Below are positions 40,480 to 50,024 of a DNA stretch of 64,000 nt, in pieces. Made by a program: the position numbers and the translations under genes. The stretch is from contig JANLFM010000003.1 of assembly GCA_024655865.1 (NCBI GenBank), positions 56,236 through 120,235 on the forward strand. The letters run 5' to 3'. Below the pieces are notes generated by a model. It had not been told where the DNA came from. It was given only the letters and a program-made list of their open reading frames with translations, and searched no databases. The stretch comes from Caldisericota bacterium (GTDB lineage: Bacteria > Caldisericota > JANLFM01). Numbering within the stretch: the stretch's first letter is position 1; every line of letters starts with the position of its first letter.

Positions 40480-40505
40480 AAAAAATAGGGACAGTCCCCA
40501 TTTTT
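40480..40505. repeat. Dispersed palindrome copy 8
   Basis: AAAAAATAGGGACAGTCCCCATTTTT. Confidence 0.9.
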
Positions 40506-42801
40506 ATTTCCAGGATTGGCCATCCGGGGAAAGGAGGACTTGACCGTTATCTCCCACGGCCAGCCAGGATCCCCCTCCGAAACCGAGAGCGTTGATATCA
40601 AAAGCGGTTCCTGAGGAGAGAGCCTCCCAGTGAGCCCCGTCCTTCGAGGTTAAAAGAATTCCATTTCGGCCTGCTGCCAGGAAACGCCCGTCTGCATAAT
40701 ATAGGCTCAGAATATCGGCATCCGTGCCCGAGGAAACCGCCGTCCAGTTCGCGCCATCCGACGAGGTCAAAATTATTCCCTTTTCTCCCGCTACTACCCA
40801 GAGGTCGTCTCCATGGGTGACTGCTCTCAAGTCCGGGGAATCGATCAGGCTGATCCTGTTCCACCTATTCCCATCCGAGGAAGTGAGAATGATCCCGGAA
40901 TTTCCTACGGCGACGAAACTGCCGTTCCCGTAAGCCACGGAACGGAGGCTCGCGCTTGTCCCGGAGGATCGGGATGTCCACTCGATGCCGAAACTGGAAG
41001 TAAGAATGGTTCCCTCGTCTCCCACAGCCACAAAAAGCCCCTGACCGTAATTGTCAAAACCGTAGGTGACTGCCCTCAAAAAAGCGGTGGTGTCTGTATC
41101 CCTTGTTTGCCAATTAAATCCATCATCCGAGGTGACAACAGCTCCTGCGCTTCCCACTGTAACCCAGCGACCCCCACCATAGACCAGTCCGCGCAGGAAA
41201 GAGGAAGCCGCGCTGACCGTGACAGCGGAAACGACAGTCTTTCCGGGCCCTGGGCCGGAGGAGGAAGTCGTCGTGGTATAAGTAACTGTCGGTTTGATCG
41301 TGTGGGTTTCCCAGACCAGGCCATCCTGAGAGCTGAGAATCAAGCCCGAATCGCCCACTGCAATCCAGTAGCCGCCCGAGAACCCGCAGGCGTAAAGGTC
41401 AACTCCCGAGACAACGGTTTCCCAGCTAATCCCATCTGAGGAAATCCACTGGGCTCCGGAATTGCCCAGGGCAACGTAGTTAGTGCCGTTGTATGCGATT
41501 CCTGACCAGCGCACCTGAGAGGAAATTCCACTGCGGCGCCAGTTTTTCCCGTCAGAGGAAAGAAGAAGGGTCCCGAGGGTTCCCCCCGCAAAGAGCTTAT
41601 CCTGGGTGACGAGTCCGGCAAGCAAGGTGTTCGTGACTCCAGAGTTTTTCTTTACCCAGCGAATGGCGTCCGTGGAGGTAAGAATCGTGCCGTCAAATCC
41701 CACGGCAAGGAAAAGTCCGTATCCGGAAAAAGTCCCAAAGGAAACTTTCCTTAACCCGGAGGTAATGGAAGCGTCTCTGGGGGTCCAGCTTGAGCCGTCA
41801 GGGGAAGTGAGGATCAGGCCTCCATCTCCCACAGCCACAAAATAATCAAGGCCGTAGGCCACGGACCACAGGTTCCGAGAAACTCCCGAGGTCTGTTCAT
41901 TCCAGTTTTTCCCATCAGGAGAAATGAAAATTGCCCCGTTATCCCCTACCGCCACCCAGAGGTCTGCTCCCCAGGCAACGCTCTTCAGATTGGCATTGCT
42001 TTCTGCGGAAGTGGCGGACCAGTTATACCCATCGGGGGAAACGATGACCTGGCCGTCATCCCCCACTGCCACCCAGTCACCGCCATAAGCCACCGCTCTC
42101 AGGGGCGTTCCCGTAGGGCCATAGCGCAGGGACCATTTGATCCCATCGCTGGAATTCAAAATAGCGCCTTTGTCCGTAACGGCGACGAAGAGGGAATTCT
42201 CGGCGGAAGTAGGAGTGGTAACGTCCGCCCACTCGCCTGTGATTACCGAGCCGGTACTTTCAGAAACGCTTGGAGTGCTCGTCTCCTCTTTTGGAGGAAC
42301 ACCGATGATCACCCTGTTTTTCTCGTTGTCCCAGGCTACCTCCTTTCCCAGGGCCTCTGCCACGAAACGGATGGGCACAAAGACGCGGTCCTGATAAATG
42401 AAGGGTTCTACATCTGGGATTACCTCTTTGCCATCGACGAAGATCGAGATGTTTTTAGAGGGCGCAGTAGCCGTATTTGTTTCCTCAACTGGTGCAGTCC
42501 CGATGATTACCCTGTTTTTCTCGTTGTCCCAGGCTACCTCCTTTCCCAGTGCTTCAGCTACAAAGCGAATGGGAACAAAGACCCGATCCTCAAAGATAAA
42601 GGGTTTCACATCGGGGGTGATTTCCACCCCATCCACGAAGATTTTAATATCTCTGAATTGAACTTCAATCTCTTGAGTTTTAGGCTCAGGGCTCCTGTAT
42701 GTCACTTCAATCTGCTGGGTCCCGGTGCTTGCGCTGACTAGGATCGCAGGGCTCAAAAATATCGACAGAATGCAAGTCAATGCCACAAGCTTACGCATCA
42801 T
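40504..42801 (-). CDS. Secreted protein: two copper-amine-oxidase-like stalk domains plus 14 propeller-type repeats
   Basis: 765 aa; duplicated KIFVDGVEITPDVKPFIFEDRVFVPIRFVAEALGKEVAWDNEKNRVIIG; 14 GxILTSSDGxxW-type repeats (Ycf48/BNR-like). Confidence 0.85.
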   Translation of the reverse strand: MMRKLVALTCILSIFLSPAILVSASTGTQQIEVTYRSPEPKTQEIEVQFRDIKIFVDGVEITPDVKPFIFEDRVFVPIRFVAEALGKEVAWDNEKNRVIIGTAPVEETNTATAPSKNISIFVDGKEVIPDVEPFIYQDRVFVPIRFVAEALGKEVAWDNEKNRVIIGVPPKEETSTPSVSESTGSVITGEWADVTTPTSAENSLFVAVTDKGAILNSSDGIKWSLRYGPTGTPLRAVAYGGDWVAVGDDGQVIVSPDGYNWSATSAESNANLKSVAWGADLWVAVGDNGAIFISPDGKNWNEQTSGVSRNLWSVAYGLDYFVAVGDGGLILTSPDGSSWTPRDASITSGLRKVSFGTFSGYGLFLAVGFDGTILTSTDAIRWVKKNSGVTNTLLAGLVTQDKLFAGGTLGTLLLSSDGKNWRRSGISSQVRWSGIAYNGTNYVALGNSGAQWISSDGISWETVVSGVDLYACGFSGGYWIAVGDSGLILSSQDGLVWETHTIKPTVTYTTTTSSSGPGPGKTVVSAVTVSAASSFLRGLVYGGGRWVTVGSAGAVVTSDDGFNWQTRDTDTTAFLRAVTYGFDNYGQGLFVAVGDEGTILTSSFGIEWTSRSSGTSASLRSVAYGNGSFVAVGNSGIILTSSDGNRWNRISLIDSPDLRAVTHGDDLWVVAGEKGIILTSSDGANWTAVSSGTDADILSLYYADGRFLAAGRNGILLTSKDGAHWEALSSGTAFDINALGFGGGSWLAVGDNGQVLLSPDGQSWK

Positions 42802-46643: not shown

Positions 46644-47066
46644 TTAATCTTTGCCGTCGTTGGGGCAAAAATAAACTTCCCGGCGGAGAGCTTCTTCGAT
46701 CGCTTTCCGATCTTCCTCCGGTAACCTCTGAGCGTATTCCTGGAACAATCTCTCTAAGTATTTCACCCGAAGCAGAGCTCCCTGAGCCATAGCTTTTTCG
46801 CCAGAGACCTGCTTTTCCAGAATGCCCACAGCTTGTTCTAATTCATAGAGGCGATAGGTTAAAGTGGAATTCAAACCCGCTTGCTGGTGCAGCTCTGATC
46901 TGGAAATCATCAACTGGTCTTTTAAATGCTTTATTTCCTTTACCAGCCCCTCCATCTTTGAAATAAGACCGTCCCAGCCCTCTTTATCCCAGGAAAACCC
47001 GGGGAAGAGCTCCTCTAAACGAGCTTGAACTGTGGATAAATCTAAATTTTTCTCTTTTTTCCTCAT
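46644..47066 (-). CDS. Uncharacterised soluble coiled-coil protein downstream of a fluoride riboswitch
   Basis: 140 aa, no TM segment; ATG 10 nt after AGGAGG; preceded by the riboswitch at 47071-47137. Confidence 0.75.
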   Translation of the reverse strand: MRKKEKNLDLSTVQARLEELFPGFSWDKEGWDGLISKMEGLVKEIKHLKDQLMISRSELHQQAGLNSTLTYRLYELEQAVGILEKQVSGEKAMAQGALLRVKYLERLFQEYAQRLPEEDRKAIEEALRREVYFCPNDGKD

Positions 47067-47070
47067 AAAT

Positions 47071-47137
47071 AAAAAACCTCCTACAAGAATTTGTAGGAGT
47101 TATCAGCCCAGAGGGCGTCAGGCGAACTCCATCGCCA
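47071..47137 (-). promoter_or_regulatory. Fluoride riboswitch (crcB motif) with overlapping transcription terminator
   Basis: Minus strand: GGCGATGGAGTTCGCC TGAC GCCC-TCT-GGGC TGATAACTCCTAC AAATTCTTGTAGGAGGTTTTTT. P1 GGCGA/TCGCC, P2 GCCC/GGGC, UGAU junction and pseudoknot GGAGU:ACUCC match the crcB motif; terminator CTCCTACAA-ATTC-TTGTAGGAG plus T6 overlaps the pseudoknot strand. Confidence 0.92.
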
Positions 47138-47142
47138 GGAAA

Positions 47143-47171
47143 ATTATCTAACTTTATAAGGAGTTTATCAA
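47143..47171 (-). promoter_or_regulatory. Sigma-70-type promoter for the fluoride riboswitch leader
   Basis: Minus strand TTGATA (47166-47171), 17-bp spacer, GATAAT (47143-47148), placing +1 just before the aptamer. Confidence 0.7.
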
Positions 47172-47465: not shown

Positions 47466-50024
47466 TTAGGGCTTTATGGGTCTTTCAAAATGCGCGATTG
47501 CAAGACCTGACCCCAGGAAATCATCCATCATTTTCTCTACTTCCCTGGCGTTCCTGGCCTTCAGAACCTCCAGGGCCAGAGAGTGACATTCGCTGAAACT
47601 GAGTTTCCTGATCAAGGCCTTAGCGGGAGGAATAGACTTAGGGTTCATGCTAAACTCATCAAGCCCGAGCCCTAAAAGTATGGGAATCGCCTCCCTCTGG
47701 CCCGCAAGTTCGCCACAAAGGCCGGCCCATTTGCCCTCAGCGTGTGCCGCTTCAATTACCTGGCGAATCAGTCGGAAAATAGAAGGGTCAAGCGGCTGAG
47801 CGAGATAATTTACCAGTTCATTTCCCCGATCAGCAGCCAGGGTGTACTGCGTGAGGTCATTGGAACCGATGCTGAAGAAATCGACCTCCTTGGCAAGGAC
47901 ATCCGCCAGAATAGCTGAGGACGGAATTTCCACCATAATCCCCACTTCGACATCCTCAACGAATTGTGCCCCTGATCGGCTCAGAGCTTCCTTTGCTTTT
48001 AAGATCAATTCCTTGGCCTGAATTACCTCATCTACAGTGGCGATCATGGGAAGCATAATCTTGATATTATGGCCCACAGCAGCCCGGAGAATAGCCTTTA
48101 ACTGCGTAAGAAAAATCTCGGGCTCTTTCAGGCAAAGCCTGATGGCGCGCAAACCCAAAAAGGGATTCATCTCGGGCTCCATTTTCAAATAGGGTAGCTG
48201 CTTATCTCCTCCAATATCCAGGGTTCTTATGATCAAAGGCCGCTTTCCCATTATTTCCGCAATCTGGAAATAGGCCTGGAATTGCTCTTCTTCAGAGGGA
48301 GCAGTTTCCCTTTCCAGGTATAAGAACTCGGTGCGCAGAAGGCCAACACCCTCCGCTCCCATCTGAATAGCTTCCAGGGCTGATTCTACATTGCCGATGT
48401 TGGCCACCACTTCAACTCTTTTCCCATCCAGAGTAGTAGCGGGTAGACTGGCCTCTCTTAGCTCCCCTTTTCTTTTCTTCACTAAAGATTCCTCTAAGGA
48501 ACGATAGCGGAGGATCTGATCCTGGGAAGGATTGATTTCTAAAGTTCCCTGGGATCCGTTCAGTGCCACAAGTGTCCCATGCTCGATGTTCAAAACTGCA
48601 TTTCCCAGCCCTACAACTGCGGGAATTCCAAGCATTCGCGCGAGAATTGCGGAATGGGAAGTGGGGCCTCCCCTAGCGGTGGCGATGCCCTTAATTTTCC
48701 CCTTTTCCAGGGTAGCGGTCTCAGAGGGCGTCAGATCCAGGGCAATTAGAATGATGTCTTCTGCCGTTTCCAATGCAGGATGGGCTTCCCTTCCAGAAAG
48801 CAGGCCCAGAAGGCGCTCCTTCACATCCCTGATATCCACCGCCCGCTCCCGCATGAGGGGATCGTCCAGTTTGGCGAATTTCTCTTCCCAGGAGGCAAAA
48901 ACTGAGGAAACCGCCCCCTCTGCATTGATCCTTTCCTTAACGATCATATCCTCGATGGCCGATTTAATGAGGTTATCGTTCAGGACTTCCTTGTGGAATT
49001 CAAAAATAGCGCCGGTCTTTTCCCCTGCTTTCGCAGAGGTCGCTTGCTGGACGATGGCTAATTGAGCTTGAGCTTCTTCCAGGGCTTTCCGGAAACGTAG
49101 AGTTTCCGCATCGGGGTCCTCCACATGGGTCACCTCCACCCTGGTTTCGCCTGGACGGTAAATGTAGGCTGGGGCTACCGCGATTCCTTCGGAGGCGGGG
49201 ACCCCTTTGAGAATTGGCAAAGGTTTAGTCACTTCTTTTTCTTCCCGCTTTTCTTCTACCCGTGCTTCTCCCACCTGAGGGGCGGCCGCAGCCGTTTCCA
49301 TTTCGCCGAAGCCTGAAAGCACCAGTTTCTTCAATTCCTCGATAGCCTTTTCGGCATCCTCACCCTGAGCCGTGATCCTGATCACTTCCCCTTGGCGCGC
49401 GGTTCCCTGGCTGGCCACCTGCATCATGCTCTTGGCATCTACCGCAGGGCGGCCGGGGTGACTGATATTCTGTACTTTAATGCGGGAAGAGAACCGGGAT
49501 GCTGTTTGGACGAAAATTGCTGCCGGACGAGCGTGCAGACCAATCGGGTTGGGAACCACAAGCTCTACGCTAAAAGTAGGGCCTTCAATGGCCTCTTCCC
49601 CCTTTTCTGAAGGGGCTTGAGCCTCCTGGGGAATTTTGGGCAAGCTTAAGGCGTTTTCTGCGGCAGCCTGTACCTGATCTAAGTTATCACCTAGGGAGGC
49701 GGCAACAGCGGCAGCGATGGCGCCTTCTACGAGTGGGGCATTGGACAGGCGGATTCTGGACCTTTTCTCCGGGGGCAACATTTCCAGATAAACCTGGGTA
49801 GTCATTACGGCACTCCCCAGATCCATAAGCACCAACACTCCGTCCTCACTAAAAGCCAATTCGATCGCTTGCTCTATTTTGAGCATGCTCGTGCCAATGC
49901 CGCCATCATCCAACCCCCCGGCTGGTATAATGGGGAGGTCCTGCCTCTGGCTCATCTGCCTGGCTAAGGCGCAAACTCCTTTAGCGAGTTCCTCGCTATG
50001 AGCCACTACAACTATTCCAACCAT
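47466..50024 (-). CDS. dhaM: DhaM (EIIA-like)-HPr-Enzyme I fusion, PTS-dependent dihydroxyacetone kinase phosphoryl donor
   Basis: 852 aa; N-term VGIVVVAHSEELAKGV...GGIGTSMLKIEQAIE; HPr NPIGLHARPAAIFVQTA; EI GGPTSHSAILARMLGIPAVVG and complete PEP-binding C-domain (IMVEIPSSAILADVLAKEVDFFSIGSNDLTQYTLAADR). Confidence 0.93.
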   Translation of the reverse strand: MVGIVVVAHSEELAKGVCALARQMSQRQDLPIIPAGGLDDGGIGTSMLKIEQAIELAFSEDGVLVLMDLGSAVMTTQVYLEMLPPEKRSRIRLSNAPLVEGAIAAAVAASLGDNLDQVQAAAENALSLPKIPQEAQAPSEKGEEAIEGPTFSVELVVPNPIGLHARPAAIFVQTASRFSSRIKVQNISHPGRPAVDAKSMMQVASQGTARQGEVIRITAQGEDAEKAIEELKKLVLSGFGEMETAAAAPQVGEARVEEKREEKEVTKPLPILKGVPASEGIAVAPAYIYRPGETRVEVTHVEDPDAETLRFRKALEEAQAQLAIVQQATSAKAGEKTGAIFEFHKEVLNDNLIKSAIEDMIVKERINAEGAVSSVFASWEEKFAKLDDPLMRERAVDIRDVKERLLGLLSGREAHPALETAEDIILIALDLTPSETATLEKGKIKGIATARGGPTSHSAILARMLGIPAVVGLGNAVLNIEHGTLVALNGSQGTLEINPSQDQILRYRSLEESLVKKRKGELREASLPATTLDGKRVEVVANIGNVESALEAIQMGAEGVGLLRTEFLYLERETAPSEEEQFQAYFQIAEIMGKRPLIIRTLDIGGDKQLPYLKMEPEMNPFLGLRAIRLCLKEPEIFLTQLKAILRAAVGHNIKIMLPMIATVDEVIQAKELILKAKEALSRSGAQFVEDVEVGIMVEIPSSAILADVLAKEVDFFSIGSNDLTQYTLAADRGNELVNYLAQPLDPSIFRLIRQVIEAAHAEGKWAGLCGELAGQREAIPILLGLGLDEFSMNPKSIPPAKALIRKLSFSECHSLALEVLKARNAREVEKMMDDFLGSGLAIAHFERPIKP

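Follow-up and report, generated by a model that had tools for sequence, protein, structure and literature searches.

Riboswitch targets have repeatedly exposed previously unknown stress proteins, and CrcB had no explanation before the ligand of its riboswitch was identified. The closest described systems to the locus reported here are the fluoride riboswitches (RF01734) that control crcB/Fluc or CLC-F. Targets other than exporters are also on record, namely enolase, pyrophosphatase, Na+/H+ antiporters and HAD hydrolases (PMC11139923). We analysed a 64-kb stretch of DNA (the window) that carries a riboswitch sharing with those of crcB/Fluc and CLC-F its aptamer class, its full length, its ON logic and a pseudoknot strand held in common with the expression platform. 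Unlike them, it controls a gene that stands alone in its unit and encodes a soluble coiled coil from an undescribed protein family, and the genomes concerned have neither crcB nor an F−-type CLC. Like the targets in PMC11139923, this is a non-exporter gene under a fluoride switch that presumably aids tolerance, but those targets belong to recognised enzyme or transporter families, whereas the 140-aa protein encoded here has no known family and was found in one phylum only. No coiled-coil target of a fluoride riboswitch was found in the literature searched, which did not include the original 2012 Science gene listing or its supplements. The conserved switch marks an undescribed protein as the putative fluoride-responsive gene of little-studied, uncultured bacteria without the known exporters. 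Because a short, soluble protein of this kind can be expressed easily, tolerance of fluoride without export becomes directly testable.

A full-length fluoride riboswitch precedes the 140-aa gene

A cmscan search of the entire window against Rfam gave a single match above its gathering score, a fluoride riboswitch on the minus strand at 47145-47087, which scored 46.4 bits (E 1e-9; curated gathering cut-off for RF01734, 34 bits) and covered the model completely (positions 1-64 of 64); the genome of the window holds this one copy only. The original prediction had recognised the riboswitch from helices P1 and P2 and a GGAGU:ACUCC pseudoknot, and all three pair as written. P1 is formed by GGCG (47133-47136) and CGCC (47121-47124), as located by cmscan and by comparison of leaders. 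The leader comparison also placed the 5' pseudoknot strand GGAGU in the P1 loop (47126-47130) and defined P2 as GCCC (47113-47116) paired with GGGC (47106-47109), all on the minus strand.

The window's family (f1) was represented by five species, G000 and G001 (g1, the window's genus), G002 and G003 (g2) and G004 (g3), which are also the entire sample of the order and class; several of the genomes are MAGs, and f1 completeness ranges from 86 to 98%. RF01734 exceeded the cut-off in 6 of 54 genomes of the phylum, four of them in f1 (G000, G001, G003 and G004) and two in a sister family, f2 (G007 and G009). P1, P2 and the pseudoknot consist of standard pairs throughout in all six leaders, with compensatory changes in both helices; the P2 sequence differs in G004, G007 and G009, yet its pairing is retained.

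The predicted sigma-70-like promoter, TTGATA-N17-GATAAT, is present at 47171-47143 on the minus strand (10/12 matches), spaced such that transcription would begin at about the aptamer's first base. By count it does not exceed chance, since 1.5 such sites are expected per 1.6 kb. It is made credible only by its position just 5' of the aptamer and by similar hexamers at the equivalent place in G001, a judgement that rests on sequence alone.

The expression platform masks the Shine-Dalgarno sequence

Downstream of the aptamer core lies a hairpin, CUCCUACAA-AUUC-UUGUAGGAG (47078-47099, minus strand), that is incompatible with the pseudoknot. Its 5' arm overlaps the 3' pseudoknot strand ACUCC (47096-47100), the switching segment, four bases of which double as the outer part of that arm; its 3' arm contains most of the Shine-Dalgarno (SD) sequence AGGAGG (47077-47082). 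Folding gave the leader a minimum free energy of −27.4 kcal/mol with the hairpin versus −18.6 kcal/mol with the pseudoknot strand blocked, no pseudoknot energy being included, and upon blocking the upper part of the hairpin re-paired. A U6 tract (47071-47076) adds an intrinsic terminator to the hairpin. A terminator had been predicted here, and this is borne out by the hairpin (47099-47078) and the GTTTTTT that comes after it; what had been overlooked is the SD sequence (TAGGAGG) in the 3' arm, through which the hairpin also masks translation.

The SD pairing and the U-tract differ in their distribution among the leaders. The SD sequence occupies the same place in all six, lying 5-12 nt 5' of the start codon (as GGAG) in the five other than the window's, and the ACUCC strand pairs with it in every case, with pairing retained despite sequence changes. 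The stem is longer in G003 (CUCCUGCAUC/GAUGCAGGAG) and shorter in G007 and G009 (ACUCCU/AGGAGU). The U6 tract occurs only in G000 and G001. Since SD sequestration is common to all six leaders and the U-tract is limited to one genus, the design that has been kept is that of a translational ON switch; the platform would thus act primarily by SD sequestration, with termination as a putative addition in the window's genus only.

That pseudoknot and SD hairpin are mutually exclusive can be read directly from the shared bases, while the response to fluoride is inferred from the RNA class. In the proposed mechanism, the dedicated promoter would produce a short mRNA headed by the fluoride aptamer. Without fluoride, ACUCC(UAC) would pair with the SD strand GUAGGAG and hide the ribosome site, and in the window's genus the hairpin and U-tract would additionally terminate transcription. 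Fluoride, as an Mg-F complex, would fix ACUCC in the pseudoknot, so that the SD sequence is exposed and one small cytosolic protein is translated.

The riboswitch-controlled gene encodes a soluble coiled-coil protein under purifying selection

The riboswitch directly precedes an ORF of 140 codons (46644-47066, minus strand). Homologues were found in all five f1 species, one per species, with 39-70% identity. When 85,462 species genomes were scanned by pattern, the four other f1 homologues were the only matches; their genomes were deposited as MAGs under the labels Caldisericota or Coprothermobacterota, and the names of three point to samples from Lake Pavin. A mobile or phage origin was rejected, as no match appeared in viral contigs, phages or plasmids. 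Substitutions between G000 and G001 fell mostly at third codon positions (36/24/87 by position), and maximum-likelihood estimates of dN and dS were 0.23 and about 2.9 for this pair (dS saturated) and 0.09 and 0.53 for G002 and G003. The dN/dS ratios are well below 1, indicating purifying selection, and the homologues and the third-position bias establish the predicted ORF as real.

The conserved columns comprise GFS(W/Y), G30, G33-L34, a (Y/F)R(L/V)(Y/F)ELEQ..G.LEK block and (I/V)YF close to the end. In the structural model a helix spans residues 26-112; a conserved PGFSW..EGW..GL segment precedes the coiled coil and a C-terminal helix follows it. The protein is a long alpha-helical coiled coil that probably forms a dimeric rod, where dimer formation is inferred. 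The original prediction held that it has no transmembrane segment and belongs to no recognised family, and both statements withstood the searches. The maximum 19-residue hydropathy was 0.31, and no transmembrane segment was detected. No relative in Pfam, NCBIfam or the PDB scored above cut-off; the weak Pfam, PHROGs and NCBIfam scores, all below cut-off, were dismissed as coiled-coil noise, and the PDB sequence search returned only weak matches, mostly designed or eukaryotic coiled coils. A fold search of the model, which is of middling confidence (pLDDT 73, pTM 0.38), against the PDB and viral structures gave nothing significant. The protein matched neither CrcB/Fluc (Pfam PF02537 membrane domain), lacking any transmembrane stretch, nor the CLC fold.

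A parallel arrangement in the sister family

The only two riboswitches in f2 (G007 and G009) each precede a 79-aa ORF that is purely coiled coil and is restricted to these two f2 genomes, with DegV and flavin reductase genes as neighbours of the locus. The protein is one complete heptad repeat (a positions V N N L I I I L L I; d positions L L L L A L L L A Y), modelled as a single helix over residues 8-78 with a pLDDT of 94.5. Thus, in both families the switch stands before a gene for a small soluble coiled-coil protein.

Whether the two proteins are related is less certain. The f1 profile matched the 79-aa protein at 13.3 bits, one of four weak matches in the phylum; the others (G044, G041 and G039) do not lie beside riboswitches, look like chance and were set aside. 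Comparison of the two proteins gave 12.8 bits, a score reached by 21 of 2000 heptad-preserving shuffles (p about 0.01), with an hhalign P of 6e-4, and both contain an LN(A/S)SLN(F/Y)(K/R)LY-like motif. These similarities are suggestive only: common ancestry may be possible but has not been shown. The 79-aa protein resembles small bacterial coiled-coil adaptors such as ZapB in size and in its all-coiled-coil build, but scored 16.0 bits with the ZapB profile against a family cut-off of 31.5 and is therefore not a ZapB member. The 140-aa protein, unlike ZapB, has additional conserved N- and C-terminal parts, and it obtained no ZapB score.

Known fluoride exporters are missing from the same genomes

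CrcB (PF02537) was absent from all ten genomes searched, five of f1 and five of f2. Three f3 genomes do carry it, and no riboswitch above the cut-off was found in them. A CLC protein was found in only one of the ten, G000, and carries the motifs GSGIP and GKEGP, which we take to be the Cl−-type and not the F−-type selectivity sequence. A known exporter as the gene under the switch was rejected, since none was found in the riboswitch unit or elsewhere in the searched genomes. Controls were positive in most reference genomes, which indicates that the exporter searches work. Most of these genomes are drafts or MAGs, so that an absence could reflect an assembly gap, and a divergent exporter is not excluded; the absence was consistent across all ten.

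A probable fluoride-response gene that is not an exporter

The regulation of the 140-aa gene is well supported, while fluoride induction and the biochemical action of its product are inferred. We consider it likely that this is a lineage-specific, monocistronic fluoride-response gene whose product is a cytosolic coiled-coil adaptor and not an exporter, an action for which there is no biochemical evidence. The protein would be a fluoride-tolerance effector working through partner binding and not through fluoride transport; candidate partners are an Mg-dependent enzyme sensitive to fluoride, the machinery of transcription or translation, or a transporter. Such an effector would operate in bacteria that have neither CrcB nor an F−-type CLC. 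The fold searches found no similar structure, and the partner-binding role is consequently an inference. The proposal of a new component of the fluoride response, with which this analysis began, gains support from the RF01734 match, the association in four of five f1 species, the f2 parallel and the lack of CrcB and F−-type CLC, although fluoride binding, induction and protection are inferred. A stronger version, which we hold only tentatively and would put at somewhat below an even chance, is that the small cytosolic coiled-coil protein, as the sole switched gene and in 140-aa and 79-aa versions in two families, is a non-exporter determinant of fluoride tolerance and perhaps the main defence of bacteria without CrcB or CLC-F.

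The best-surviving alternative is that the 140-aa protein is not a tolerance factor itself but a trans-acting regulator that orchestrates a broader response to fluoride stress through a partner such as RNA polymerase, the ribosome or a sigma/anti-sigma type factor. Small coiled-coil proteins are often adaptors, the f2 member is nothing but coiled coil and, as each genome has a single riboswitch that controls no exporter, the one switched gene would have to carry the whole response. No known regulator was matched by sequence or fold, and in the absence of direct evidence we regard this role as rather unlikely, without discarding it.

The conserved unit is the riboswitch and one gene

The riboswitch lies directly 5' of the 140-aa homologue in four of the five f1 species (G000, G001, G003 and G004), so the recurrence behind crcB motifs that was to be checked does hold, despite differing neighbour genes. 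The neighbours are a PTS phosphotransferase and HlyD/ABC/FtsX genes in g1, a pyruvyl transferase (G003) or a HAD phosphatase, a uridine kinase and a beta-propeller protein (G002) in g2, and an amidase in g3 (G004). Because the neighbours vary by genus, the retained unit is the riboswitch plus one gene. The upstream neighbour in the window (47466-50024, minus strand) encodes a fused DhaM-type EIIA/HPr/PTS enzyme I of 852 aa.

The g1 arrangement raises the question of whether the riboswitch truly serves the downstream MacAB-like exporter operon (46404-42823), the 140-aa ORF being incidental. This operon, with genes assigned as HlyD, ABC and MacB/FtsX, shares the strand of the ORF and follows it at a distance of 240 nt in the window and 154 nt in G001, with no terminator identified in the gap. 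It is not conserved as a neighbour beyond the window's genus: the next gene is convergent in G003 (the pyruvyl transferase) and in f2, and a different gene follows in G002. Moreover, the ORF affected by the SD-masking hairpin is the first one, which is under purifying selection, and to our knowledge MacAB-type pumps are not known as fluoride exporters. The operon was rejected as the true target, an explanation we judge improbable. Also on the minus strand of the window, at 40504-42801, is a gene for a secreted-looking protein of 765 aa, in which two copper amine oxidase N-terminal domains precede numerous repeats of the type VAVGD.G.ILTS.DG.

In G002, no aptamer was detected upstream of the homologue, even at a relaxed threshold. 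Alignment of the G002 locus (L005 1900-1990, minus strand) with G003 revealed that part of the platform hairpin persists, as CCTACATCCGATCGATGCAGGAGG, with unrelated sequence 5' of it. On the simplest reading of this alignment, aptamer control has been lost and the gene may have been left constitutive. The gene is retained there without an aptamer, so its link with the riboswitch is not absolute. A further alternative is that the aptamer has decayed or taken on another role, no longer senses fluoride and is kept merely as an SD hairpin. This would fit G002, where the aptamer is gone but the gene and part of the hairpin remain, and one published in vitro assay, in which just 323 of the 1901 fluoride riboswitch sequences switched transcription (PMC13273304). 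It is nevertheless very improbable: six genomes from two families retain every conserved feature of the aptamer, with compensatory changes in both P1 and P2, and the assay used E. coli polymerase and scored termination only, thereby missing translational switches.

Other fluoride riboswitch loci

Two further sets of loci were observed. In G044, a fluoride riboswitch match below the cut-off (28.7 bits; L027 1012-1082, plus strand) is located some 100 nt upstream of an ORF resembling a P-type ATPase, possibly another unusual riboswitch target. In three IMG/VR viral contigs (L042 897-1427, L043 1108-1638 and L044 2-397), a fluoride riboswitch is followed by a crcB-like gene that adjoins a DNA cytosine methyltransferase-like gene, apparently representing phage-borne fluoride resistance.
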